A program made the position numbers and the translations under genes. Under the pieces are notes generated by a model. That model ran no database searches and had not been told where the DNA came from. It was given only the letters and a program-made list of their open reading frames with translations. This document shows, piece by piece, positions 12,477 through 28,383 of a DNA stretch of 64,000 nt; the stretch's first letter is position 1; each line of letters opens with the position of its first letter. Source of the stretch: Sphaerochaeta pleomorpha str. Grapes (GTDB taxonomy: Bacteria > Spirochaetota > Spirochaetia > Sphaerochaetales > Sphaerochaetaceae); contig NC_016633.1 in NCBI RefSeq assembly GCF_000236685.1, forward strand, positions 3,415,815-3,479,814, written 5' to 3'.

Positions 12477-15400
12477 ATGGCAGACATCATGCGTCCTGTT
12501 CCATTTTCGGAACTACTTAGCCGTATTGTTGGAGAATATCGTAACCACCATTCAATTTTTGGACTTGCCGAGGAGCAGTTCTATACAGACAAAGGCAAAC
12601 ATGACCTGAAGGTATTTGGCCAGCATTGCAGCACCGCATGTGGTCCCGCTGCAGGCCCCCATACCCAGCTTGCCCAGAATATTGTCACCAGTTACCTTGC
12701 CGGTGGCCGGTTCATGGAACTGAAGACCGTACAGGTCATGGATACCCTTGAGATCGACAAACCCTGTATTGATGCCCGCGACGAAGGCTATAATGTGGAA
12801 TGGTCCACAGAATATTCCCTTCCCAAGGCTTGGGACGAATATGCAAAGGCTTGGATCATCCTGCATGTCATTGAAGCTTTGCAGGGCAAAGGCAAATTCG
12901 AGAAGCCTTCCTTTATTTTCAATATGTCCGTCGGATATAACCTTGAAGGAATCAAGACGGCAAAGATGCAACAATTCATCGACTCGATGATTGATGCGAA
13001 CAAGGATCCCCGCTTTGCAGAATATCTGGCTGAACTGGATGCAATGGTCGAAGAAGGCCTGCTCGATGGTTCCCCCTGGGATGGTATGGAAAAGAAGCTC
13101 AAGGGCATTTCTTCCAAAATCAGCGCCAATATCAGCCCCTCGACCACCATCAGCACCATGCATGGCTGTCCTCCCAAGGAAATTGAAGCCATCTGCACCT
13201 ATATGCTCACCGAAAAGAAAATCGACACCTTTGTAAAGCTCAACCCAACGTTGCTCGGCTATGACAAAGTCCGTGAGATCCTGGACAACCTCGGATTCGA
13301 TTATATCGGTCTGACAAGAGAAAACTTCGAGCATGACCTGCAGTACAATGATGCAATTGCCATGCTTCATCGTTTGGTAGACCTGGCAAAGAAAGAAGGG
13401 AAGGGTTTCGGCGTAAAACTGACCAATACCCTTGGTTCTGTCAACGACCAGGGCGTTCTTCCCGGCAAAGAGATGTATATGTCCGGCCGTGTCCTTCTTC
13501 CTATTTCTACCACCGTTGCAAGCTGGCTGAGTAAGGAATTCGGTGGAAAACTCCCTGTTTCCTATAGTGGCGGCGCCAATGCGCTTACCGTCCAGGCTCT
13601 TTTTGAGACCGGCATCCGCCCCATTACCCTTGCTACCGATATGCTCAAGCCGGGCGGGTATTCCCGTCTGAACCAGATGGTATCCATCCTGGAAAAGAGT
13701 AAAGCCTGGGATATGGATTCCATCGATGTTGAGAAAATCGAAAAGCTTTCCAATGACGCCTGCACTGGCAAATTTGCCGTGACCGAGAAGGAATTCCGTG
13801 GTACAGACAGCATTAAGATAGGCCAAGACCTTCCTTTATTCGACTGCTATGTTGCTCCCTGCCAGGTTGCCTGCCCCATCCATCAGGATGTTCCAGAGTA
13901 TGTCCAGCTTGTCGGAGAAGGCCGCTATGCCGATGCCCTTACCCTTATTTATGACAAGAACGCACTTCCTGCAATTACTGCAAACATCTGTGACCACCAG
14001 TGCCAGTTGCATTGTACCCGTATGGATTACGAAGGTGCTGTGCAGATTCGCGAGATGAAAAAACTTGCAGTGGAGAATGGATTCGAGGAGTTTAAGAAAT
14101 CCTGGGAAGGTCCTACTGACAAGAGCGAAATCAAAGCCGCTGTCGTTGGTGCCGGTCCTGCAGGTCTCTCTGCTGCCTATTTCCTTTCCCGCAGTGGCTT
14201 TGACACCACGGTCTTTGAACGGGAGGAGAATGCAGGCGGCGTAGTACGCCATGTCATTCCTGGTTTCCGTATCCCTGTCGAGGCCATAGAGAGTGATATT
14301 GAGTTCATCAAAGCACATGGTGTGGATTTCCGCTTCTCTGCAAAGAGCGAGGATATTACCGTCAAGGCTTTGAAAGAATCAGGCTATTCCTATGTCTTCT
14401 ATGCTGTCGGTAGCGAAAAGGACAATGAAATCCCGCTTAAGGGAGAAACCAAGAATGTATTGCAGTCCCTTTCTTTCCTGGGTGCCTACAGAAAGGATCC
14501 GTCCTCTGTAACCTTGGGCAAAAACGTGGTGGTAGTCGGTGGCGGAAATACCGCTATGGACAGTGCCCGTGCAGCCCTCAGGGTCCCTGGAGTAGAGAAA
14601 GTCTCTGTGGTCTACCGCAGGACCGAGAAGGAAATGCCAGCCGACCTGGAAGAGTACGGCCTTGCCAAGGAAGAAAACGTAGAGTTCTTGTTCCTTGCAA
14701 ACCCTGAATCCTATGAAGGAAACAAGCTGGTTGTCCGCAAAATGGAACTCGGTGAAAAAGATGCTTCCGGCCGTTGTCGCCCGGTAGCTACCCAAGAGAC
14801 TTTCACCATGGTTGCAGACTCTATGATCACCGCCATCGGTGAACATGCCGACTCTGAAAAACTTACCTGGTACGGCGTACCGGTAAACGAGAAGGGTTGG
14901 CCGAAAACTGACAAGGAGACCTTGGAATCGGAAGTCGAGGGCGTCTATGCTATCGGTGATGTGCAAAGTGGTCCTTCGACCGTTGTCCGCTGTATCGCAA
15001 GTGCAAGGACTGCCGTAGAAGCCTGTATCGACAAGGTACTCGGTCCTCTTGAGGACGACGAAGAAGATGACTGTTGTTGTGGCCATGACCATAGCGAAGA
15101 CCATGAATGTTCCTGTGGCCACGACCACAGTGAAGATCATGAGTGTTGCTGCGGTGATGACGAGGACGATGACGATTGTTGCAGCGATGATGACGACGAT
15201 GACGAAATGAGCCCTGAGGAAATGGAAAACCTTGCAGCTGACGAGAATTCCTATTTTGCACTCATCAATGAAAAGAAGAGTCAGATTCTGGTTTCCAAGA
15301 GTGTCAGTGACAAGAAATTTGCAGAGACTGAGGCGAAGCGTTGCCTTGAATGTTCCTATATGTGTAACAAGTGCGTAGAGGTTTGCCCCAACAGGGCCAA

Positions 15401-15761
15401 CGTCGCAATCGATGTACGCAATACCGGGGTATTCGACAACCCGTTCCAGATTCTCCATCTCGATGCTTACTGCAACGAATGTGGGAACTGTGACACCTTC
15501 TGTCCTTGGACCGGTGGCCCGTATAAAAAGAAATTTACGCTCTTCAGCAGAATGGATGACTTTGAGAATTCTACCAACGAGGGTTTCTATTCTGACAATG
15601 GGGAAATCGTTATCAGGTTTGCTGGTAAGATTTACAATTGTTCAATGGACGAGGACGGGATCCTTGTAGGCGACCAAGAGGGAATCACCGATGAAGTCGC
15701 TGCCTTGATCGAGGAAGTGTTTACATCGTACAGCTATCTGCTGGGTGTCGTAGAAGACTAA
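12477..15761 (+). CDS. ygfK: YgfK, multidomain Fe-S flavoprotein of urate/selenium-linked purine metabolism
   Basis: 1094 aa. In order: a dihydroorotate-dehydrogenase-like TIM barrel (about 1-430; S-T-M-H-G-C-P-P-K-E-I-E-A); a glutamate-synthase-small-subunit-type Fe-S region starting C457-x4-C462-x3-C466; FAD motif G-A-G-P-A-G near 558; NAD(P) motif V-G-G-G-N-T-A-M-D near 687; a Cys/His/Asp-rich insert at 859-910; and two C-terminal 4Fe-4S motifs from C956 and about 999. Named a putative selenate reductase subunit, the family is genetically tied to anaerobic urate breakdown in E. coli and gut Firmicutes. It likely moves electrons between NAD(P)H and a purine substrate or the molybdenum hydroxylases. 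AAGGAG precedes the ATG. E. coli YgfK, from memory, is about 60 aa shorter, roughly the insert size. Confidence 0.92.
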   Translation: MADIMRPVPFSELLSRIVGEYRNHHSIFGLAEEQFYTDKGKHDLKVFGQHCSTACGPAAGPHTQLAQNIVTSYLAGGRFMELKTVQVMDTLEIDKPCIDARDEGYNVEWSTEYSLPKAWDEYAKAWIILHVIEALQGKGKFEKPSFIFNMSVGYNLEGIKTAKMQQFIDSMIDANKDPRFAEYLAELDAMVEEGLLDGSPWDGMEKKLKGISSKISANISPSTTISTMHGCPPKEIEAICTYMLTEKKIDTFVKLNPTLLGYDKVREILDNLGFDYIGLTRENFEHDLQYNDAIAMLHRLVDLAKKEGKGFGVKLTNTLGSVNDQGVLPGKEMYMSGRVLLPISTTVASWLSKEFGGKLPVSYSGGANALTVQALFETGIRPITLATDMLKPGGYSRLNQMVSILEKSKAWDMDSIDVEKIEKLSNDACTGKFAVTEKEFRGTDSIKIGQDLPLFDCYVAPCQVACPIHQDVPEYVQLVGEGRYADALTLIYDKNALPAITANICDHQCQLHCTRMDYEGAVQIREMKKLAVENGFEEFKKSWEGPTDKSEIKAAVVGAGPAGLSAAYFLSRSGFDTTVFEREENAGGVVRHVIPGFRIPVEAIESDIEFIKAHGVDFRFSAKSEDITVKALKESGYSYVFYAVGSEKDNEIPLKGETKNVLQSLSFLGAYRKDPSSVTLGKNVVVVGGGNTAMDSARAALRVPGVEKVSVVYRRTEKEMPADLEEYGLAKEENVEFLFLANPESYEGNKLVVRKMELGEKDASGRCRPVATQETFTMVADSMITAIGEHADSEKLTWYGVPVNEKGWPKTDKETLESEVEGVYAIGDVQSGPSTVVRCIASARTAVEACIDKVLGPLEDDEEDDCCCGHDHSEDHECSCGHDHSEDHECCCGDDEDDDDCCSDDDDDDEMSPEEMENLAADENSYFALINEKKSQILVSKSVSDKKFAETEAKRCLECSYMCNKCVEVCPNRANVAIDVRNTGVFDNPFQILHLDAYCNECGNCDTFCPWTGGPYKKKFTLFSRMDDFENSTNEGFYSDNGEIVIRFAGKIYNCSMDEDGILVGDQEGITDEVAALIEEVFTSYSYLLGVVED

Positions 15762-18503: not shown

Positions 18504-20651
18504 ATGGCACAGAAGCCTATTGCCGACCCTGTACGAAGGGTAGATGCTATAGCCAAAGGGAGCGGGACGCAAAAATATCTTACCGACTTCCAATTTGAGG
18601 ATATGCTGTACAGTCGAATGGTCCGCTCGAGTATTCCCCGTGGGATTATTAAGAATATTGAGGTCCCCCAGCTACCCGAAGGGTACTATTTCATTACTTA
18701 TAAAGACATTCCGAGTGACGGACGAAATGAACTTGCAATGATTGCAAAGGACTGGAAGTGTTTCGCCGAGAACGAAGTAAGGTATGTCGGTGAGACCATA
18801 GGCCTTTTGGTCGGGGAAGACAGGAATATCCTTGCCGATCTCCATGACCAGGTCAAAGTTACCTATGAGGAATTGGAACCTGCCATTTCCATTGAAGATG
18901 GCCTTGCCCTAAAAGGTGGTGCTTTTGTCAACGATGACAACATCTTCTGTGAGTTGCATACCGAGACCGGGGAAAACCTCGATGAGGTCTTTTTCCAGGC
19001 AGACCGTGTGTTCGAGGAAACCTACCGTACTGGATTCCAGGAACACGTTCATCTTGAAACCAATGGTGCGCTGTGCTGCAAGGAAGACGACAAGTTTGTC
19101 ATTTATGCCTCTGCCCAGTGTCCTTTCTATATTCGGAAATCCATTGCAGGGCTTCTTAACCTGCAACCCCAGGACATTATCGTGCGTCAGACGACTACCG
19201 GTGGTGCGTTCGGGGGAAAAGAGCATTTTCCCGATGTGCTCAGCGGTCCCCTGCTGGTAGCAGTCAATAAGATTGGCAAGCCGATCCAGCTTTCCTTCGA
19301 CCGGAGCGAGGACATGGAATACTCGGTCAAACGTCATCCGAGCAGGACGAAGATCAAGACAGCCCTGGACAAGGATGGGAATATCCTTGGCATGGATATA
19401 GATGTTGTCTACAATGTCGGGGGATATCTCTCCTGTTCGTTTGTTGTCCTGCAGCGTGGGGTTTTCCATGCAACGGGTTGTTATGCAATCCCCTCAACCA
19501 GGATACATGGACGCGGTGTGGCTACCAACACCTTCCCAAGCGATGCCTTCCGTGGTTTCGGAGCCCCCCAGACTATTTTCGCCATTGAACGGCATATGGA
19601 TCATCTCGCTGTGTTCCTCAAGAAAGACCCTCTGGAACTGAGGAATCAATATCTTCTAAAGAAAGGTTCGCTTACCTCTACCAATGGCCATGTCGTCGAA
19701 GACGTCAAGCTTCCCGAGATGATCAAACAGATTACCGATGCTTCCGATTACTGGCGCAAATCCAAGGAATATGACCGAGGCTCAGGAAAGGGTATCGGAA
19801 TTTCTTTGTATAACCATGGCGGTGCTTTTACCGGAAACGGTGAACAGATGATTATTAAAGCCCATGCAAGGTTGCATAAGAGCGCCGATGGCATGGTCGA
19901 AATCCTTGTCGGAAGTACCGAGATGGGGCAAGGTTTCCAGACCGCGGCACGTAAAATCGCCGCCCAGGTTCTGGATATTGATATCGACATGGTTACGTAC
20001 GAGAATCCCGATACGTCACGTGTTCCCGATAGCGGTCCGACGGCAGCAAGCCGTTCTACCATGATTGTCGGAAAACTGGTTGAACGGGCGGCCTTGCAGA
20101 TGAAGGACCGTTATGCCTCGGAAGAAGATTTCTCTGTCGAAGTTGAGTATGAACATCCCGAAGGTTTCCCCTGGGACCAGAAAACCTTCCAGGGTGATGC
20201 CTACCTCGGCTATGGCTGGGGGGCGGCAATCGTCGAGGTTGAGCTCGATCCCCTTACTTCTGAAGTAGAGACAAAGGGAATCTGGGTCAGCCATGATGTA
20301 GGTCATCCAATTGATGAGCTCATCATCCGTGGACAGGTCCATGGAGGGGTGATGCAGAGCCTTGGCTATGCCTCAATGGAACTGCTGGAGAACAAGAAGG
20401 GTTATTTCAAGCAAAATTCCATGAGCGATTATATTATCCCGACTTCCATGGATTTCCCGAAAATGGAATCGTTTTTGGTTGATAACCCCTATCCCTATGG
20501 GCCTTTCGGGGCTAAGGGTATGGGTGAATTGGTGTTCAATGGAGCTGATGCCGCGTTCTGTGATGCGGTAAGCCGTGCCATTGATCGGAAAGTCTGCGAG
20601 ATTCCCATCCCGAGCGAAACTATTATGGAGCTACAGCTACATGGAAACTAA
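18504..20651 (+). CDS. Molybdenum hydroxylase large subunit (XdhA-like, xanthine dehydrogenase family)
   Basis: 715 aa. Molybdopterin-binding motifs in order: T-T-G-G-A-F-G-G-K-E-H (about 232), D-A-F-R-G-F-G-A-P-Q (about 350), G-S-T-E-M-G-Q-G (about 470), D-S-G-P-T-A-A-S-R-S-T, and the C-terminal F-G-A-K-G-M-G-E, whose Glu is the expected base. The chain begins directly with the aldehyde-oxidase/xanthine-dehydrogenase N domain, so Fe-S and FAD parts come from the next two genes. The substrate is probably a purine or another N-heterocycle; its genomic partners (ygfK, ssnA, ygeY) are those of the selenium-dependent molybdenum hydroxylases. No accessory selenium gene (yqeB, yqeC, selD) is in the window. 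Confidence 0.9.
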   Translation: MAQKPIADPVRRVDAIAKGSGTQKYLTDFQFEDMLYSRMVRSSIPRGIIKNIEVPQLPEGYYFITYKDIPSDGRNELAMIAKDWKCFAENEVRYVGETIGLLVGEDRNILADLHDQVKVTYEELEPAISIEDGLALKGGAFVNDDNIFCELHTETGENLDEVFFQADRVFEETYRTGFQEHVHLETNGALCCKEDDKFVIYASAQCPFYIRKSIAGLLNLQPQDIIVRQTTTGGAFGGKEHFPDVLSGPLLVAVNKIGKPIQLSFDRSEDMEYSVKRHPSRTKIKTALDKDGNILGMDIDVVYNVGGYLSCSFVVLQRGVFHATGCYAIPSTRIHGRGVATNTFPSDAFRGFGAPQTIFAIERHMDHLAVFLKKDPLELRNQYLLKKGSLTSTNGHVVEDVKLPEMIKQITDASDYWRKSKEYDRGSGKGIGISLYNHGGAFTGNGEQMIIKAHARLHKSADGMVEILVGSTEMGQGFQTAARKIAAQVLDIDIDMVTYENPDTSRVPDSGPTAASRSTMIVGKLVERAALQMKDRYASEEDFSVEVEYEHPEGFPWDQKTFQGDAYLGYGWGAAIVEVELDPLTSEVETKGIWVSHDVGHPIDELIIRGQVHGGVMQSLGYASMELLENKKGYFKQNSMSDYIIPTSMDFPKMESFLVDNPYPYGPFGAKGMGELVFNGADAAFCDAVSRAIDRKVCEIPIPSETIMELQLHGN

Positions 20652-21117
20652 CATAGAATTTACCTTGAATGGGGAACTTGTCTCCATTACTACCGATCCG
20701 CTTCGTCGTCTGCTTGACGTAATCCGGGAGGATTTCGGCCTTGTCGGAACCAAGGAAGGTTGCGGTGAGGGTGAGTGTGGGGCTTGTTCCGTCATTAAAG
20801 ACGGAAGGATCATCACTACCTGCATGGTTCCGATAGGGGCTGTCGGGGGAAGTTCCATCATGACAATCGACGGGCTGAAGGAAACCGCTCAGGGCAAGTG
20901 CATCATCGAAGCCTTTGCCGACGGAGGGGCTGTCCAGTGTGGGTTCTGCATCCCGGGTATGGTTATAGCCGCCGAGGATATGCTTACGCGCAACCCGCAT
21001 CCAAGCGAGCAAGAAATTCGTGCAGGTATCAGCGGGAATATCTGCCGCTGTACCGGCTATGATTTGATCGTGGAAAGTATCAAACTCGCCAGCGAGAGGG
21101 GGAATGGACTATGGTAA
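20641..21117 (+). CDS. [2Fe-2S] subunit of molybdenum hydroxylase (XdhC-like, CoxS family)
   Basis: 158 aa small electron-transfer subunit. The plant-ferredoxin cluster has C-G-E-G-E-C-G-A-C and a fourth Cys in I-T-T-C; the second cluster has Q-C-G-F-C and C-R-C in G-N-I-C-R-C-T-G-Y. All eight ligands are present. The start at 20641 overlaps the large subunit by 11 nt. Since the XdhD-like protein downstream has lost its own cluster ligands, this subunit might serve both hydroxylases. Confidence 0.93.
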   Translation: METNIEFTLNGELVSITTDPLRRLLDVIREDFGLVGTKEGCGEGECGACSVIKDGRIITTCMVPIGAVGGSSIMTIDGLKETAQGKCIIEAFADGGAVQCGFCIPGMVIAAEDMLTRNPHPSEQEIRAGISGNICRCTGYDLIVESIKLASERGNGLW

Positions 21118-21977
21118 CCTATATTCCGGAAACACTCGAAGAAGCTCTTGCTATCAGAAAAGAGAGTGGTGCTCGCCCCCTTGCAGGCGGTACCGATCTG
21201 ATGGTCCAGTATCGTCGGGGAGTAGGGGTAACGCCCAAGTTTCCCTGGCCGATCATGATAGTCAGCCAGCTTGCAGAGCTCAAAGGTATTTCTCAGGACC
21301 TCGATGGCAGCTGTGTAATCGGTGCCGGTGTTACCTCTACTGAGATTGCAGAATCGGAGATGGTACCCTTTCATGTACGTGAGGCAGCAAGCAGGATGGG
21401 CGCCATTTCGCTTCGCAACCTAGCCACGATAGGCGGAAACATCGGCAATGCTTCCCCTAAGGGCGACCTTCCTGCCGTTTTGATCCTTCTCGATGCTTCC
21501 CTTGTGCTGTCCAGTGTCAGCGGGGAGCGGATTGTCTTGCTTGACGATTTTATCGTGGGGGCAAAGAAGACACTCCTAAGAGAGGATGAGCTTATCACCA
21601 AAATTATCATTCCAAGGCCTGAAAAGCCATTTACCTATGTATGGTACCGTAAAATCGGAACCAGAAAGGCAAATGCAATAAGCAAACTATCCTTCTCAGC
21701 CGCCATGACTGTGGATGATGAGGGAATAGTCACTGATTTTCGAGCTTCCAGCGGTGCTGCAGGTCCGAAAATCGCAAGGAACAAAGAATTGGAATCCACT
21801 TTGATCGGGAAAAACATCGAGGATCTTCCCTCCATGATACCCGCCTTCCTTCTAGAATATGACAAGATCATATCGCCTCATGCCATGCCTGAGTACAGAA
21901 GGGAGTCGACAAAAAGAATGCTTGCTTATTTTTTGGAACAGGTCGCTAAAAGACCTGCATCGGAGATAATCAAATAG
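21111..21977 (+). CDS. FAD-binding subunit of molybdenum hydroxylase (XdhB-like, CoxM family)
   Basis: 288 aa. FAD motifs L-A-G-G-T-D-L-M (about 25-32) and R-N-L-A-T-I-G-G-N-I-G-N-A-S-P-K-G-D (about 102-119), followed by a CO-dehydrogenase flavoprotein C-terminal domain. It starts 7 nt before the end of the Fe-S subunit gene, completing a three-subunit enzyme encoded as Mo, Fe-S, FAD. It passes electrons from the Fe-S clusters to NAD or another carrier. Confidence 0.92.
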   Translation: MVTYIPETLEEALAIRKESGARPLAGGTDLMVQYRRGVGVTPKFPWPIMIVSQLAELKGISQDLDGSCVIGAGVTSTEIAESEMVPFHVREAASRMGAISLRNLATIGGNIGNASPKGDLPAVLILLDASLVLSSVSGERIVLLDDFIVGAKKTLLREDELITKIIIPRPEKPFTYVWYRKIGTRKANAISKLSFSAAMTVDDEGIVTDFRASSGAAGPKIARNKELESTLIGKNIEDLPSMIPAFLLEYDKIISPHAMPEYRRESTKRMLAYFLEQVAKRPASEIIK

Positions 21978-21985
21978 GAGTATCC

Positions 21986-23374
21986 ATGAAATCTTCCATT
22001 TTACTGAAGAACATTTTCTGCCTGCAACTGAGTTTTGACGGTCCTCAGTACAGGGGTGCCGATTTGCTGATAGTCGGGAATAAAGTTGCCAAGATGCAAC
22101 CTGAGGGTGGTTTGATCGCACCTGAGGGGGCCCGGGTCATCGATTGCTCGAGGCATGTGGTAATTCCCGGTCTGGTAAACACTCACCATCATTTCTACCA
22201 GACACTGACCAGAAACCATCCGGCTGTACAGAATGCAAAGCTCTTTGATTGGCTGAAGTTTCTCTATGATGTATGGAAATATGTCGATGATGAAGCTGTC
22301 TACTATTCCTCTATGCTCGCCATGGCCGAGCTGATGAAGACCGGTTGTACCTGTACCACTGACCACCATTACCTCTATCCGAGGAATTTCAAAGGCGATT
22401 TGATGGGGCTTCAGTTTGAGGCTGCCGACAAACTGGGAATGCGTTTTAGTCCCACAAGGGGCTCGATGAGCCTGAGCAAGAAAGACGGGGGACTTCCTCC
22501 TGACAGTGTCGTACAGACGACCGATGAAATTCTCGCCGATAGTGAACGTTGCATCCTGAAATATCATGATGATGCTCCTGATGCCATGCACAAGATTGCC
22601 TTGGCTCCCTGTAGCCCGTTCAGTGTTACCAAGGACTTGATGAGTGAGACAGCTATCCTGGCGAGGAAATACGGTGTAAGATTACATACGCACCTGTGTG
22701 AAACGGCTGATGAAGCTGATTTTTGCCAGAGTATGTACGGTATGCGCCCTGTAGCGTTGATGGAGGAATGTGGCTTGATCGGAAATGATGTGTTCTATGC
22801 ACATGGGATTCATTTCAATGACGAAGAACTCAAAGTTCTCCAAAATACCGGTACACATATTGCGCATTGTCCCTCTTCGAACATGAGACTGGGAAGCGGA
22901 ATCTGCCGCGTGCAGGATATGCTTAAAATGGGTATCAATGTAGGAGTGGCAGTTGACGGCAGTGCGAGCAATGACAGCTCGGATATGCTCAATGAGGTTC
23001 GCATGGCCATGTTGTTGCAGCGGGTCAAATATGGCTCCGATGCCCTTACTGCGTCAGAAGCTTTTACCATGGGAACCATAAACGGTGCGAAGATGTTGAA
23101 TTTCGGTAATGTCGGATGCCTGTTTGAGGGTTGGGCTGCCGATATGGCGATTTTTGATGTTTCTACCTTGCCTTATGCAGGCAGTCAGAGCGACCCAGTG
23201 GCAAGTCTGCTCTTCTGTGGAACAGACCATAACACAGATTATACGATTATTAATGGAAAAGTTGTAGTTGACCAAAGGCGGCTGGTTGGCTTCGACGAAC
23301 AGGCTCTTGCTGATAAGGCGAACGCTATCAGCAAAAAGCTTATGGATAAAGCTGCCAGAGGGGAGGCCGTATGA
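21986..23374 (+). CDS. 8-oxoguanine deaminase-like amidohydrolase (TrzN/AtzA-related)
   Basis: 462 aa amidohydrolase. Metal motif in L-V-N-T-H-H-H-F-Y-Q-T-L-T-R-N (H-x-H within 66-71), H-T-H-L-C-E-T (about 232), Y-A-H-G-I-H-F (about 270) and V-D-G-S-A-S-N-D (about 318). The combination H-H-H-F-Y-Q-T-L-T-R and V-D-G-S-A-S-N-D-S is the pattern of the 8-oxoguanine / isoxanthopterin / hydroxyatrazine group. 8-Oxoguanine deaminase makes urate, which fits the surrounding urate genes well. A clear AGGAG precedes the ATG. The precise substrate is inferred. Confidence 0.82.
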   Translation: MKSSILLKNIFCLQLSFDGPQYRGADLLIVGNKVAKMQPEGGLIAPEGARVIDCSRHVVIPGLVNTHHHFYQTLTRNHPAVQNAKLFDWLKFLYDVWKYVDDEAVYYSSMLAMAELMKTGCTCTTDHHYLYPRNFKGDLMGLQFEAADKLGMRFSPTRGSMSLSKKDGGLPPDSVVQTTDEILADSERCILKYHDDAPDAMHKIALAPCSPFSVTKDLMSETAILARKYGVRLHTHLCETADEADFCQSMYGMRPVALMEECGLIGNDVFYAHGIHFNDEELKVLQNTGTHIAHCPSSNMRLGSGICRVQDMLKMGINVGVAVDGSASNDSSDMLNEVRMAMLLQRVKYGSDALTASEAFTMGTINGAKMLNFGNVGCLFEGWAADMAIFDVSTLPYAGSQSDPVASLLFCGTDHNTDYTIINGKVVVDQRRLVGFDEQALADKANAISKKLMDKAARGEAV

Positions 23375-24204
23375 TACAGGAATTTCTCATTGCAACCAAT
23401 ACCGAGGATGCCCTCGAATTGAAACGTACACATGAGGGAAGCGTCTTTTATGCAGGTGGAACAGAAATCAACCGCTTAGGTTCGACAATCCAGGCCACGA
23501 CTGCAATCAGTCTTTCCAAATTGCGTCTGGATACGATAACAGAGGATGAATCGACGATTCGAATCGGCAGCATGGTCACGTTCCAGCAGTTACTCGAATC
23601 TCCCTTGGTTCCTCAGTGGCTCAAGGATGCGGCTTTGTTCTGCGGGTCGTTCCCGAAGAGAAACATGGCAACGATAGGTGGAAACCTTGCGCTCTGTCGC
23701 GATGATTCCTACCTTGGACCAGCGTTGCTGGCTTCCCGTTGTCGTCTTTGCACAGCAAGTCTTACCGAAAAAGGGGCATACTGCGAGGATAATATTCCTA
23801 TTCGTGAATATCATGCCTACCATGCCCAGTTCAAGGGAACCTTGTTGCTTGTCATTATTATTCCCAAGGCCTCGCGCTTCGTTGGTACCTTGCGGTTTGC
23901 CAATACGGTGGAAAGCCACGCAGCGGTAACCGTTGGTTTTGGGGCATCAGTGGATGGGGAAGGGGTTATTGACCATGTTCGTCTGTATGCTGCTGTAAAA
24001 GGTAGTCCTTTGCAGCGTTTGTCTGCGGTTGAAAATTCGATTGAAAACGGCGAATTGACAACCCAATCTGATGTTCAGCATGCCATTGCCCATGATATCG
24101 AGGCGAAGGATGATTTTAGTGGAAGTTCTGCCTATAAGCGGTACATTGCCAGTGATTCCCTTGCCCAATTGTTTGCCAAATTCCTGGCAGGAGGCGTGAA
24201 ATGA
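23371..24204 (+). CDS. ygfM: FAD-binding hydroxylase subunit, YgfM-like
   Basis: 277 aa. FAD motifs Y-A-G-G-T-E-I-N-R-L-G (about 27-37) and R-N-M-A-T-I-G-G-N-L (about 95-104). It overlaps the deaminase by 4 nt (ATGA) and the XdhD-like gene by 4 nt, so the three are translated together. E. coli places ygfM beside xdhD in the same way. It likely serves as the flavin subunit of the XdhD-like enzyme. Confidence 0.85.
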   Translation: MIQEFLIATNTEDALELKRTHEGSVFYAGGTEINRLGSTIQATTAISLSKLRLDTITEDESTIRIGSMVTFQQLLESPLVPQWLKDAALFCGSFPKRNMATIGGNLALCRDDSYLGPALLASRCRLCTASLTEKGAYCEDNIPIREYHAYHAQFKGTLLLVIIIPKASRFVGTLRFANTVESHAAVTVGFGASVDGEGVIDHVRLYAAVKGSPLQRLSAVENSIENGELTTQSDVQHAIAHDIEAKDDFSGSSAYKRYIASDSLAQLFAKFLAGGVK

Positions 24205-27080
24205 GTATTATTTCTTGTAATATAAACAATAGGAATGTCAAAATAGAAAGTAACGGTTCAGAATCGTTGCGAGAAATGTTGGTTCGAGCCGGACATTTTG
24301 CCGTTCGAGACAGTGATGACCGCGAAGGGTTTGCCGGAAGCGATACCATCATTTTCAATGATATGCCGGTGTATGCAAACCTGATGGTAGCAGGCCAGGC
24401 AGAGGGTGCGGTTATCCGAACCCCTGATAGCCTCGGGGATAGCCGTCACTTGAGTGCTGTCCAACAGGCAATGATAGATGCTGGTATTGTCCAGAGTGCT
24501 TACAATATTCCTGCTGCAGCCTTGCTGTTGACTTGGCTTCTGGAACATGAAAAAAATCCTACCAAAGAGCAGATCGATAATGTGCTTTCCGGTATCTTTA
24601 TCCGTGACACAGGGTATGAGCATTTCTACCTTGCAGTCAAATTGGCTTTGGAGAAAATGAAAGACGGGAAGTATTCATCTGAGATTTCCCCTTCTTTCCG
24701 GGAGAACCTCACCTATGTCGGCAAACCGAAGGCGAAGGTCGATGGTCCGCAGCTGGTAGCCGGAGAAAAGAGCTTTGTCGAGGATAGGGTGCTTCCAGGC
24801 TATAACAGCATGGTAGTTTTGCGCAGTCCTTATGCACATGCCTATATAAAGAAGATCGACACAAAAGAAGCTGAGGCGATGGAAGGTGTTATCGCCATCA
24901 TTACCGCAGATAACTGCCCAGACGTATTCTACATGCAGGCTGGTCAGGGGAACCCTGAGCCGAGTCCCCATGACAGGCGTTTGTTCAACCATAAGGTCAG
25001 GCACGTAGGTGACCGGGTCGCTGCCATTGTTGCCGAAACCGAGGAACAGGCCTTGGCTGCCCGCTCTGCTATCAAGGTAGAGTATGAAGTACTGAAACCG
25101 GTATTTACTGTAGAGGAAGCCATGGCTGAGGGTGCTCCCCTTGTGCATAACGGGGTTGTTGAATACCGCGTAGGCGCCCCTGCAGATTTGGATGAGTATA
25201 ATAAGAGTGCTGAGAAAAGAGACGGGAAAGTTGTCTACCAGTTCCCCCTCCATGGTGATATCCGCCACAACATTGCATCCGCAGCCCATGGCCAGATCGG
25301 CGATGTGGAAAAAGGATTTGCCGAAGCCGATGCCGTAGTTGAGAGAACCTACCAGACTTCCCAGATTCAATGTACCCCACTTGAACCCCATGTATGCTAT
25401 GCCAAGATTGACAATGGCCGACTGGTGCTCCATGCCTCTACGCAGGTACCTTGGCATGTGCGCCGCATTGTAGCCTGGGTCTGTCAGATTCCCGAGAACA
25501 AAATCCATGTCATCAAGGAAAAAGTTGGCGGCGGCTATGGTTCGAAACAAGATATCCTGGTAGAGGACCTGGTTGGATATGCAACCTGGTTGACTGGCAA
25601 GGCTGTCTATTACAGAAATACCCGCGAAGAGGAATTCATTGCAAACTCCACCCGTCATCCGATGAGGGTGACTGTAAAGATGGGGGCAAAGAAAGATGGA
25701 TCCCTTACTGCCGTGTATATGGACGTCAGGGCAAATACCGGTCCATACGGAAACCATTGTCTTACCGTTCCCATGAATGCCTGTTCGAAGACACTTCCTT
25801 TGCTCAAGTGTGACAACATGCGTTTCGATGTAATCACCTACTACACCAATATCCCTCCCACGGGAGCCTACCAGGGCTATGGGGCGCCGAAAGGGACCTA
25901 CGGGCTCATGGTGTGTATGGCAGAGCTTGCCGACAAGCTTGGCCTTGACTACTACCAGATGGCTATGAAGAACAAGGTTGAACCCGGGTATATGCTTGAG
26001 ATTCTCAAGGGCCTTGGCGAAGGACGTGAAGGTAACGTGGTTCCCGTTGGTTCGTGTGGTCTTGACCAGGCTCTCAAGCAGGGCGCGGAAATGATCCATT
26101 GGGGCAAGAAGGAGAAATCCAAAGATCCCGATTGGAAAATCGGAAAAGGTTTTGCGATGATCCAGCAAGGTTCAGGCCTTCCTGGGCTCGACCATGCAAA
26201 TGCTTGGGCAAAGCTTCTCACAGACGGCACCTTCCAGATTTTCAGTGGCGGTGCAGACTTGGGAACCGGACTCGATACGATCAGCGTCAAGATGATGAGC
26301 GAAGCATTCTGCATCGATATGGATAGTGTAACCGTTGTCAGTGGTGATACAGACAGTTGCACGTTCGATACCGGGGCCTATGCCTCGAGTGGAACGTTCT
26401 TCAGCGGGAATGCCTCCTATTATGCGGCAGAGGATCTGAAGAAGAACCTGCTTACAGAAGCTGCGTTGCAGATGGGTGAGGATTTCGACGACCTGATCTG
26501 TCGGGCTCCTGGCGAGGTCTACAGTACAAAGACAGGCAAGACCCTCAGCTATGCCAAGCTTTCCCATGATGCACTGACGGGAACCGGTCGGGGCCAAGTC
26601 ATGGGTCGTGCATCGTTTACTACGAATGCCAGCTCCATTCCCTATGGCGCCCATTTTGCCCAGGTTGCGGTCAATGTGAGGACCGGCCAGGTCAAGGTGC
26701 AGAAATTCTATGCGCTGCAGGATGCAGGGACTCCGATCAACCCGGAACTTGCTTTGTGCCAGATGTATGGGGCTGCGTTGAAGTCCATCGGGCATACCCT
26801 GACTGAGCAAATGGTACTTGATGGGGAAGGCCGTTGTGTTTCCGCCAATTTCACAGATTACGGGGTTCCGATGATCTGGGAAAAACCGGATGATTTCAAG
26901 GCTGTCTTGATTGATATCAATGATAACGATGGGCCTTATGGAGCAAAGTCAATCAGTGAGATTGCGACAAACGGGGCTGCCCCGGCTATCGCTACCGCTA
27001 TTCATGATGCATGTGGAATCTGGATGCGTTCCTGGCCTTTCTCGCCTGAGAAAATCCTGAAGGAACTCGGAAAGATTTAA
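24201..27080 (+). CDS. xdhD: XdhD-like molybdenum hydroxylase with degenerate ferredoxin domain
   Basis: 959 aa. Residues 1-160 keep the fold of a [2Fe-2S] subunit, but every ligand position is changed when aligned to the intact subunit at 20641: D40, A45, D48, N60, S99, N102, I134 and D136. Residues from about 170 form the molybdopterin part: V-G-G-G-Y-G-S-K-Q-D-I (about 443), G-A-Y-Q-G-Y-G-A-P-K-G, F-S-G-G-A-D-L-G-T-G-L-D, Y-A-S-S-G-T-F-F-S-G-N and Y-G-A-K-S-I-S-E with the catalytic Glu. E. coli XdhD is about the same length and, from memory, has the same substitutions, so the loss looks ancestral rather than a local decay. Probably a selenium-linked purine hydroxylase or reductase. Confidence 0.92.
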   Translation: MSIISCNINNRNVKIESNGSESLREMLVRAGHFAVRDSDDREGFAGSDTIIFNDMPVYANLMVAGQAEGAVIRTPDSLGDSRHLSAVQQAMIDAGIVQSAYNIPAAALLLTWLLEHEKNPTKEQIDNVLSGIFIRDTGYEHFYLAVKLALEKMKDGKYSSEISPSFRENLTYVGKPKAKVDGPQLVAGEKSFVEDRVLPGYNSMVVLRSPYAHAYIKKIDTKEAEAMEGVIAIITADNCPDVFYMQAGQGNPEPSPHDRRLFNHKVRHVGDRVAAIVAETEEQALAARSAIKVEYEVLKPVFTVEEAMAEGAPLVHNGVVEYRVGAPADLDEYNKSAEKRDGKVVYQFPLHGDIRHNIASAAHGQIGDVEKGFAEADAVVERTYQTSQIQCTPLEPHVCYAKIDNGRLVLHASTQVPWHVRRIVAWVCQIPENKIHVIKEKVGGGYGSKQDILVEDLVGYATWLTGKAVYYRNTREEEFIANSTRHPMRVTVKMGAKKDGSLTAVYMDVRANTGPYGNHCLTVPMNACSKTLPLLKCDNMRFDVITYYTNIPPTGAYQGYGAPKGTYGLMVCMAELADKLGLDYYQMAMKNKVEPGYMLEILKGLGEGREGNVVPVGSCGLDQALKQGAEMIHWGKKEKSKDPDWKIGKGFAMIQQGSGLPGLDHANAWAKLLTDGTFQIFSGGADLGTGLDTISVKMMSEAFCIDMDSVTVVSGDTDSCTFDTGAYASSGTFFSGNASYYAAEDLKKNLLTEAALQMGEDFDDLICRAPGEVYSTKTGKTLSYAKLSHDALTGTGRGQVMGRASFTTNASSIPYGAHFAQVAVNVRTGQVKVQKFYALQDAGTPINPELALCQMYGAALKSIGHTLTEQMVLDGEGRCVSANFTDYGVPMIWEKPDDFKAVLIDINDNDGPYGAKSISEIATNGAAPAIATAIHDACGIWMRSWPFSPEKILKELGKI

Positions 27081-27183: not shown

Positions 27184-28383
27184 ATGAAGGACAAAGCCGC
27201 TATTAAAAAAATGATCGAAGAGCTGAAAACGCTCAAGACCGACGACATGTACCTGAATGACTTTTTCCACACCTGGAAGGAGTCTGATGACGAGATTGAG
27301 GCTGTATTCGAAGTAGCAGAAATTCTTCGCGCCATGCGTGAGAACAATATTTCGACCAAGGTATTTGACAGCGGTCTTGGAATCTCCGTATTCCGCGATA
27401 ACTCAACCCGTACCCGTTTCAGCTTCACCAGCGCTTGTAACTTGCTCGGCCTTGCAGTCCAGGATCTGGATGAGAACAAGAGCCAGATTGCCCATGGTGA
27501 AACCGTCCGCGAGACTGCCAACATGATCAGCTTCATGGCTGATGTAATCGGTATCCGCGACGATATGTATATCGGAAAGGGTCACACCTACCAGAAAACA
27601 GTTGCAACTGCAGTTCAGGAAGGCTATGACGACGGGATTCTCGAACAGAGACCTACCATTGTCAACCTCCAGTGCGATATCGACCACCCGACCCAGTGTA
27701 TGGCTGACATGATGCACATCATCAACCATTTCGGTGGTGTTGAAAACCTCAAGGGTAAGAAAGTTGCAATGACCTGGGCTTATAGCCCCTCCTATGGCAA
27801 ACCCCTTTCTGTTCCCCAGGGAGTTATCGGTCTGTTTACCCGCTTTGGCATGGACGTAGTACTTGCCCATCCCGAAGGGTACAATGTAATGCCTGAGATC
27901 GAAGAAGTAGCCAAGGAAAATGCAGCAAAGTGCGGTGGATCCTACCAGAGGGTCAACAGCATGGAAGAAGCTTTCCAGGATGCCGATATCGTATATCCCA
28001 AGAGCTGGGCTCCGTTTGCCGTCATGGAAGAAAGGACCAAGATTGTTGAGAATGGCGATCAGGCTGCACTCAAGGACCTTGAGAAAAAATGCCTTGCAAC
28101 CAATGCTCAGTTCAAGAATTGGACTTGTACCGAAGATTTGATGAAGACAACCAAAGAAGGAAAAGCTTTGTATCTGCACTGCTTGCCAGCAGACATCACC
28201 GGTGTCTCCTGTAAAGAAGGCGAAGTTGAAGCTTCCGTATTCGATCGTTACCTGGTTCCTTTGTACAAGCAGGCTAGCTACAAACCCTATGTAATTGCTG
28301 CAATGATCTTCCTTGCAAAGTTCCAGAGCCCTTCAGCTAAGCTTGAAGAACTGCTTGAACAGGCAACCAAGAGAGTTCTCTAG
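27184..28383 (+). CDS. ygeW: YgeW, knotted carbamoyltransferase
   Basis: 399 aa aspartate/ornithine-carbamoyltransferase-fold enzyme. Carbamoyl-phosphate loop S-T-R-T-R at 74-78; D-I-D-H-P-T-Q near 160; the signature W-A-Y-S-P-S-Y-G-K-P-L-S-V-P-Q-G; Y-P-K-S-W-A-P; and H-C-L-P-A-D near 333. It is close to E. coli YgeW throughout. In urate clusters the reverse reaction is assumed: phosphorolysis of a ureido compound to carbamoyl phosphate and an amine, allowing ATP gain through carbamate kinase (not found here). It has its own promoter and terminator. GGGAGG precedes the ATG. Confidence 0.95.
   Translation: MKDKAAIKKMIEELKTLKTDDMYLNDFFHTWKESDDEIEAVFEVAEILRAMRENNISTKVFDSGLGISVFRDNSTRTRFSFTSACNLLGLAVQDLDENKSQIAHGETVRETANMISFMADVIGIRDDMYIGKGHTYQKTVATAVQEGYDDGILEQRPTIVNLQCDIDHPTQCMADMMHIINHFGGVENLKGKKVAMTWAYSPSYGKPLSVPQGVIGLFTRFGMDVVLAHPEGYNVMPEIEEVAKENAAKCGGSYQRVNSMEEAFQDADIVYPKSWAPFAVMEERTKIVENGDQAALKDLEKKCLATNAQFKNWTCTEDLMKTTKEGKALYLHCLPADITGVSCKEGEVEASVFDRYLVPLYKQASYKPYVIAAMIFLAKFQSPSAKLEELLEQATKRVL

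Follow-up and report, generated by a model that had tools for sequence, protein, structure and literature searches.

The xdhD gene of Sphaerochaeta pleomorpha str. Grapes lies in a urate gene cluster and encodes a molybdenum (Mo) hydroxylase of 959 amino acids (aa). The N-terminal domain of this protein is of the [2Fe-2S] ferredoxin type, and the Cys ligands of its iron-sulfur (Fe-S) clusters are missing. The window, i.e., the whole stretch of DNA analysed, comprises 64,000 nucleotides (assembly GCF_000236685.1, contig NC_016633.1, positions 3,415,815 to 3,479,814) and is part of a complete 3.59 Mb genome, the close named relatives of which are Sphaerochaeta and other spirochaetes. The features of xdhD are given below in window coordinates; residue counts refer to 106 XdhD proteins with at most one of the eight ligand Cys (cluster-less) and 10 with all eight (intact).

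24201..27080, +: xdhD, 959-aa molybdenum hydroxylase with an N-terminal cluster-less [2Fe-2S]-type domain (TIGR03313)
24201..24665, +: pseudo-ferredoxin domain, residues 1-155 (beta-grasp part 1-75, four-helix part 76-155), without cluster ligands (Fer2_2)
24315..24317, +: D39, first ligand position of cluster II; Asp in 106/106 cluster-less, Cys in 10/10 intact
24333..24335, +: A45, second ligand position of cluster II; Ala 67, Cys 21, Thr 14, Val 3, Ser 1 (n=106); Cys in 10/10 intact
24342..24344, +: D48, third ligand position of cluster II; Asp in 106/106; Cys in 10/10 intact
24378..24380, +: N60, fourth ligand position of cluster II; Asn in 99/106; Cys in 10/10 intact
24495..24497, +: S99, first ligand position of cluster I; Ser in 104/106; Cys in 10/10 intact
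24504..24506, +: N102, second ligand position of cluster I; Asn in 106/106; Cys in 10/10 intact
24600..24602, +: I134, third ligand position of cluster I; Ile in 91/106; Cys in 10/10 intact
24606..24608, +: D136, fourth ligand position of cluster I; Asp in 103/106; Cys in 10/10 intact

Cluster ligands of XdhD in the window and across the family

XdhD scores 1240.7 bits against TIGR03313 (XdhD / Se_sel_red_Mo), above the curated cut-off of 1101.9, and is a member of this family by score. Its catalytic part matches MoCoBD_1 (248.6 bits) and MoCoBD_2 (211.2 bits), the domains of molybdenum hydroxylases of the xanthine oxidase family. Fer2_2 (PF01799) matches residues 76-147 with 50.8 bits (gathering score 30.3), compared with 93.5 bits for the intact Fe-S subunit encoded at 20641. 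The Fer2_2 ligand motifs CxxC and CxC read SxxN and IxD in XdhD, and the two [2Fe-2S] clusters that are the hallmark of the xanthine oxidase family have no ligand Cys. The initial annotation had claimed that all eight ligands are lost and that the surrounding G, T and P positions are kept. Both claims were borne out, with no Cys at any ligand position and with G43, G46, T74, G95 and G138 among the retained residues, as is P104 in most proteins. It placed D40, A45, D48, N60, S99, N102, I134 and D136 opposite Cys 41, 46, 49, 61, 100, 103, 135 and 137 of the subunit at 20641, to which XdhD residues 42-152 align without gaps by BLAST at 27% identity. Seven of these positions stand as named, but the first is D39 and not D40, because the intact-ligand relatives read VRDGCDGEGSCGLC, i.e., C-x5-C-x2-C, with one residue more than the canonical C-x4-C-x2-C. 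The D40 column is the neighbour of the ligand and is mostly Asp in the intact and cluster-less groups alike. Judged from the sequence, canonical [2Fe-2S] binding by the N-terminal domain of XdhD is impossible.

The ligand loss was followed in 144 XdhD proteins, from which 28 near-duplicates were removed to leave 116 distinct sequences (106 cluster-less, E. coli included, and 10 intact). The eight ligand positions contain no Cys in 85 proteins, one in 21 and eight in 10, with nothing between. The sole Cys of those 21 proteins is at position 45, in the motif GFCGSD (e.g., L060, L101 and L113), and their other seven positions are non-Cys. An earlier set of 112 XdhD proteins, from which near-duplicates had not been removed, consisted of those of the window, of E. 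coli K-12 and of 110 loci; here position 45 was Cys in 19 proteins, and the other seven positions named in the initial annotation were never Cys. Conservation of the substitutions, a check proposed at the outset, was confirmed for D39, D48 and N102 (106/106 each), S99 (104/106) and D136 (103/106). The full 8 of 8 Cys are present in each of 66 Fe-S domains taken as controls from the xdhD loci, 13 of them fused and the others stand-alone, and in eight of the nine Fer2_2 domains of the window genome; XdhD alone has 0. The ligand loss is more than chance and is a conserved family trait, the rule for XdhD and no peculiarity of the window genome.

The "Mo/Fe-S-binding subunit" in the name of TIGR03313 does not describe the 106 cluster-less members, which have at most one of the eight ligand Cys, and the ligands are found only in the 10 intact proteins. 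Membership by score stands, but the name is misleading for most members. The RefSeq entry for E. coli XdhD (L119, 21317-24187) is labelled as a fused Mo and Fe-S binding subunit, yet it has none of the ligands. A search of the cluster-less proteins for Cys motifs of a replacement cluster yielded no candidate. Outside the domain, C619 is conserved and C239 and C520 are frequent, each in both groups; C399, C428, C528, C853 and C879 are frequent among cluster-less XdhD, and E. coli has only C399 of these five. Prior notice of the ligand loss was not found in the openly licensed PubMed Central (PMC) papers covered. In the consulted parts, PMC12542679 and PMC2997495 contain nothing on the N-terminal domain of XdhD, and the main text of PMC12507026 uses "2Fe-2S" 0 times and does not mention the missing ligands.

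Predicted fold, selection and the intact sister group

The AlphaFold2 model of whole XdhD has a mean predicted local distance difference test (pLDDT) score of 87.3 and a predicted template modelling (pTM) score of 0.88. Its best solved match is 1sij (Z 40.4, root-mean-square deviation (rmsd) 2.6, 866 residues aligned over residues 1-958). The model of the domain alone (pLDDT 90.0) matches 3hrd_D best (Z 21.9, rmsd 2.0, 156 aligned), with several rows tied. The Fe-S domain fold is thus predicted to be kept in XdhD despite the loss of the ligands. Across 107 moderately diverged pairs, the ratio of nonsynonymous to synonymous substitution rates (dN/dS) has a median of 0.059 in residues 1-155, compared with 0.034 in the Mo part. 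The pseudo-ferredoxin domain is under strong purifying selection and shows no decay. Structure prediction, another of the proposed checks, together with the dN/dS of 0.059 agrees with a retained fold and a constrained domain. In rat xanthine oxidoreductase, changes of single ligand Cys residues gave insoluble or monomeric protein (PMC3509653; this and the other papers cited are represented here by parts of their text). Because of this behaviour of the rat mutants, the fixed substitutes may be compensating changes that enable a folded cluster-less domain.

The vacated sites might instead bind another cofactor, with D39, D48 and N60 (and S99, N102 and D136) as oxygen ligands for Ca, Mg, Mn or mononuclear Fe. 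Nearly invariant oxygen-donor residues are present at three of the four ligand positions of each site. However, the confidence of the ligand loops is among the lowest in the models (pLDDT blocks of 72 to 80), position 45 is mostly Ala, and plain hydrogen bonding accounts for the identical pattern, so that we regard such a cofactor as improbable.

Intact-ligand XdhD was found in the spirochaetes as 10 distinct proteins, three of them from fetched stretches, all with eight Cys. They are encoded at L127, L129, L130, L140, L141, L143, L145, L157, L158 and L159. The phylum-wide search covered 294 genomes, 39 of which had a match at E 1e-200 and 36 a match over the TIGR03313 cut-off. TIGR03313 surveys of 243 genomes (the class of G063) and 201 genomes (the phylum of G061) each gave only the centre genome. 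Intact XdhD may occur beyond the spirochaetes, since only 80 of 363 relatives of the window genome were kept in the contig scan. Against E. coli XdhC, the N-terminal domains of intact proteins score 101 to 122 bits versus about 47 to 64 bits, or no match, for cluster-less ones. Open frames of 1230 aa at L130 and L145 were suspected of being fused YgfM-XdhD proteins; this was rejected, as YgfM is encoded there in a separate overlapping frame.

Orthologues of 50-54% identity have Cys at the ligand columns. The identity of just 27% to the paralogous subunit could raise the suspicion of a misalignment, or of an unused domain that is decaying neutrally. This reading is contradicted by Cys at these very columns in such close orthologues, by the dN/dS and by the invariant substitutes, and is scarcely credible.

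A tree of the N-terminal domain was built without the ligand columns from 45 sequences and 144 columns (23 cluster-less after removal of duplicates, 10 intact and 12 outgroup). The cluster-less proteins are monophyletic with a support of 98, the intact ones with 98, and both jointly with 96. This monophyly, and the occurrence of the same substitutes in every cluster-less branch, points to a single ancient loss of both clusters as the simplest account. The tree of the Mo domains (45 sequences, 781 columns), the base of which is poorly resolved, supports the intact clade at 100%.

The urate gene cluster, YgfM and the supply of electrons

The genes around xdhD and two catalytic residues of the protein are as follows.

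12477..15761, +: ygfK, homologue of yanthine reductase with flavin adenine dinucleotide (FAD) and 4Fe-4S domains (TIGR03315, 1406.7 bits; function from PMC12507026)
15772..17094, +: ssnA, amidohydrolase of the urate pathway (PRK07203 and TIGR03314 above cut-off)
from 17144: ygeY, member of the urate cluster
18504..20651, +: Mo subunit of a second Mo hydroxylase, 715 aa (MoCoBD_1, 235 bits; MoCoBD_2 in two stretches)
20641..21117, +: intact Fe-S subunit of the second Mo hydroxylase, 8/8 Cys (Fer2_2, 93.5 bits)
21111..21977, +: FAD subunit of the second Mo hydroxylase (FAD_binding_5, 131.6 bits)
21986-23374: second SsnA-like amidohydrolase, directly 5' of ygfM, 59-65% identical to its counterpart in clusters with intact XdhD
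23371..24204, +: ygfM, FAD-binding partner subunit, overlapping the start of xdhD (FAD_binding_5, 72.1 bits)
26019..26021, +: E607 of XdhD, equivalent to Glu606 of E. coli XdhD; Glu in 106/106 cluster-less and 10/10 intact
26958..26960, +: E920 of XdhD, conserved Glu; Glu in 106/106 cluster-less and 10/10 intact
27184..28383, +: ygeW, carbamoyltransferase of the urate pathway (open reading frame)

Clusters with intact XdhD have the order ygfK-ssnA-ygeY-..-ssnA-like-ygfM-xdhD-ygeW. The SsnA-like gene, ygfM and ygeW flank xdhD in 10/10 fetched stretches, with ygfM labelled by its best match, which in one case is E. coli XdhB. The genes ygfK, ssnA and ygeY were seen in 9/10 stretches, and the tenth (L152) stops at a contig edge. 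The gene adjoining intact xdhD has the window or E. coli YgeW as its best match (63-68% identity). The second SsnA-like protein may have a dedicated role in the pathway, separate from that of SsnA. Residues about 858-909 of YgfK (15048-15204) form a repeat rich in Cys, His, Asp and Glu, these four making up 43 of 50 residues where they are densest. The corresponding count is 16/50 in E. coli and L060, and 24 to 39 in seven relatives from Sphaerochaeta and other spirochaetes and in L059; this stretch of YgfK is possibly metal-binding. The Mo subunit of the second hydroxylase (715 aa) is shorter than the XdhA profiles (about 760 positions).

We take E920 to occupy the position of the catalytic base in xanthine oxidase family enzymes. 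As this residue and the Glu606 equivalent are invariant in both groups, the chemistry of intact and cluster-less XdhD should match. Tagged E. coli XdhD was purified by Li et al. (2025) with a partner of about 30 kDa, putatively YgfM, and E. coli XdhD-YgfM with urate and NADH (reduced nicotinamide adenine dinucleotide) yielded yanthine (2,8-dioxopurine) (PMC12507026). The same study modelled the pair on the xanthine dehydrogenase of R. capsulatus and proposed, from a model, that Glu606 orients urate. A confident XdhD-YgfM heterodimer has also been predicted (commentary, PMC12990295). XdhD of the window is predicted to be an NADH-dependent reductase of urate to yanthine, because of the function of E. 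coli XdhD, the same gene cluster and the invariant equivalent of Glu606. Since intact XdhD shares the urate cluster and the catalytic Glu residues, the same reaction is probably carried out with and without the relay of Fe-S clusters.

Of 107 loci with sufficient flanking sequence, 106 have ygfM next to xdhD, the exception being L111, where the open frames overlap; the flanks of 3 more loci were too short. YgfM of the window scores 117.5 bits against TIGR03312, under its cut-off of 241.5, and keeps the FAD motifs AGGT and TIGGN. The segment after these motifs reads RDDSYL in the cluster-less group (80 sequences) and KSC[A/S]SL in the intact group (10), compared with N..SP.GD in canonical FAD subunits (53 sequences). 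Because this segment differs between the groups and E. coli YgfM has GGE instead of GGN in the flavin motif, the flavin side is, to judge from these motifs, altered along with the clusters.

The initial annotation had concluded that the enzyme needs another route for electrons, which is supported by the absence of the ligands in a domain that keeps its fold, and had offered YgfK or the neighbouring Fe-S subunit. YgfK, which has cluster-binding and flavin domains of its own and is encoded in the same cluster, could give electrons straight to XdhD. However, it is the catalyst of the next step, and XdhD-YgfM was active in an assay for which, in the consulted part of the paper, YgfK is not listed (PMC12507026); this route is very unlikely.

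The second candidate is an XdhC-type Fe-S subunit of the neighbouring xanthine dehydrogenase, which would dock on XdhD-YgfM, replacing the pseudo-domain or beside it, and carry the electrons. A stand-alone Fe-S subunit is present in every surveyed genome with cluster-less XdhD (39/39, 11/11 and 21/21, counted from listings), where the sets of 39 and 11 may share a genome, one of the 39 (G014) has an in-frame stop, and the XdhD group was taken from the fetched sequence or else from the Fer2_2 score. Among the cluster-less loci, 65 were judgeable and 42 were not; 52 of these 65 encode such a subunit, versus 0 of 10 intact-XdhD stretches of 13.7 to 19 kb. Among 11 genomes with intact XdhD, G780 is without a stand-alone subunit over the cut-off and G746 has only a weaker one. 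Yanthine is still formed in a delta-xdhA strain of E. coli, and XdhA is dispensable (PMC12507026).

The subunit occurs in every surveyed genome, but the one in the window is part of a complete second enzyme with its own Mo and FAD partners (18504-21977), and 13 of the 65 judgeable clusters lack it locally. The pseudo-domain should itself sit in the docking site of an XdhC-type subunit, and the sole partner described for the purified E. coli complex is of about 30 kDa, whereas XdhC has 159 aa (PMC12507026). Co-presence is expected regardless, as both enzymes serve purine breakdown; the local contrast comes from one clade and may reflect that clade, and fused subunits of Fe-S/FAD size are encoded about 16 kb from intact XdhD. 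Counted gene by gene, 5131 of 5426 E. coli genomes have xdhD and 5232 have xdhC. We consider a docked subunit possible, though rather unlikely. In G014, the sole listed stand-alone Fe-S subunit (C479:29471-29671) reads through an in-frame TGA and may be a pseudogene, a selenocysteine protein or an assembly error. Small proteins (163-188 aa) that match Fer2_2 very weakly (20-28 bits) in G704, G709, G767, G761, G678 and G780 are perhaps another degenerate or divergent family of Fe-S subunits.

A third scheme dispenses with a donor. The Mo centre would be recharged by oxidation of a second purine at the same site, e.g., xanthine to urate, making the enzyme a xanthine/yanthine transhydroxylase. 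Redox-neutral transhydroxylation at Mo has a precedent in pyrogallol-phloroglucinol transhydroxylase, and without its two clusters the Mo centre is isolated, yet the catalytic residues remain invariant. However, YgfM and its FAD motifs persist at nearly all loci. Moreover, NADH was added to the published assay and a second purine is not reported in the consulted part of the paper (PMC12507026). Purine exchange is only slightly less improbable than direct donation by YgfK.

The explanation we favour, and hold to be probable as a whole, is that XdhD is the Mo subunit of a urate reductase that underwent a single ancient cluster loss, keeps a structural pseudo-ferredoxin and receives electrons without clusters of that domain. 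An ancestor resembling the spirochaete sister group would have lost both [2Fe-2S] clusters, with all eight ligands, in one ancient event. Selection would then have retained the domain as a structural bridge that holds the FAD subunit YgfM against the Mo domain, the emptied sites being occupied by a fixed network of Asp, Ser and Asn. NADH would reduce the flavin of YgfM, and electrons would arrive at Mo bypassing any clusters of XdhD itself. Within this explanation we infer the structural role, the entry of electrons at YgfM and the final route. The foremost route is Fe-S-free transfer from flavin to Mo across a rearranged XdhD-YgfM interface, which we put forward tentatively, followed by a transiently docked XdhC-type subunit. 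A broader proposition dispenses with any Fe-S relay: electrons would cross a remodelled interface between flavin and Mo, or move between two purines by way of the same Mo. We regard it with similar reserve.

Several points weigh against this explanation. The Mo-domain tree nests the intact clade by E. coli among cluster-less XdhD, in a 30-sequence clade at 100%, and a constraint with cluster-less XdhD monophyletic and intact XdhD as its sister costs 5.4 log units and is merely not rejected (approximately unbiased test, p 0.27). Several losses or a regain, as this tree taken at face value would have it, were set aside because all cluster-less branches have the same substitutes, the domain tree disagrees and the constraint is not rejected. 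The alignment behind the domain model included Cys-bearing Fe-S subunits (11 of 40 rows), which biases it toward that fold, and the GGE of E. coli YgfM makes its flavin uncertain. Without the relay, the distance between flavin and Mo should be too great for electrons to pass quickly. The electron order in xanthine oxidoreductase is Mo, Fe/S I, Fe/S II and FAD (PMC3509653). The published assay used 10 uM enzyme, with the rate and an XdhD control without NADH not stated in the consulted part (PMC12507026), and no structure or metal analysis of XdhD-YgfM was met in the literature covered.

Relation to known systems

XdhD begins anaerobic urate breakdown in gut bacteria, and its gene cluster is overexpressed in a strain engineered to counter high uric acid (PMC12507026). 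The ligand loss corrects the "Mo/Fe-S-binding subunit" label of the family and raises a mechanistic question, the path of electrons to Mo, about an already published enzyme. The ordinary xanthine dehydrogenase relay, as annotated and modelled for XdhD, is ruled out by the sequence for most of the family. If true, a relay-free XdhD-YgfM would break the rule of electron transfer through two [2Fe-2S] clusters in the xanthine oxidase family. Intact and cluster-less XdhD, with the same gene cluster and active-site residues, form a natural pair to probe the need for an Fe-S relay.

The closest known system is XdhD-YgfM of E. coli (b2881, b2880), which belongs to the same family and has the same gene order and cluster-less positions as the window (D38, A44, D47, S59, S98, N101, S133 and D135 in E. 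coli numbering); its XdhD has 956 aa, compared with 959 aa in the spirochaete. Intact-ligand spirochaete XdhD shares the active-site Glu residues, the gene cluster and the adjoining ygfM with the window protein, but has all eight Cys and another flavin-loop motif in YgfM. The XdhC and XdhA families of E. coli are nearest to the two halves of XdhD outside TIGR03313 (NF043084, 63.9 bits, and NF043082, 542 bits, respectively); unlike XdhD, XdhABC consists of three chains and XdhC has 8/8 Cys. XdhD of C. difficile and XdhAC of C. sporogenes reportedly initiate this urate pathway as well (PMC12507026, PMC12990295), the former being 25.63% identical to E. coli XdhD and without YgfM (PMC12507026). 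The small Fe-S subunit of nicotinate dehydrogenase (3hrd_D) is the closest solved fold to residues 1-157 and the best small subunit by sequence, but it is a separate subunit and is named as an Fe-S subunit. The aldehyde oxidoreductase of Desulfovibrio gigas (1sij) is, like XdhD, a single chain with an Fe-S domain followed by Mo domains, whereas it contains two [2Fe-2S] clusters and no FAD domain (PMC10223205).

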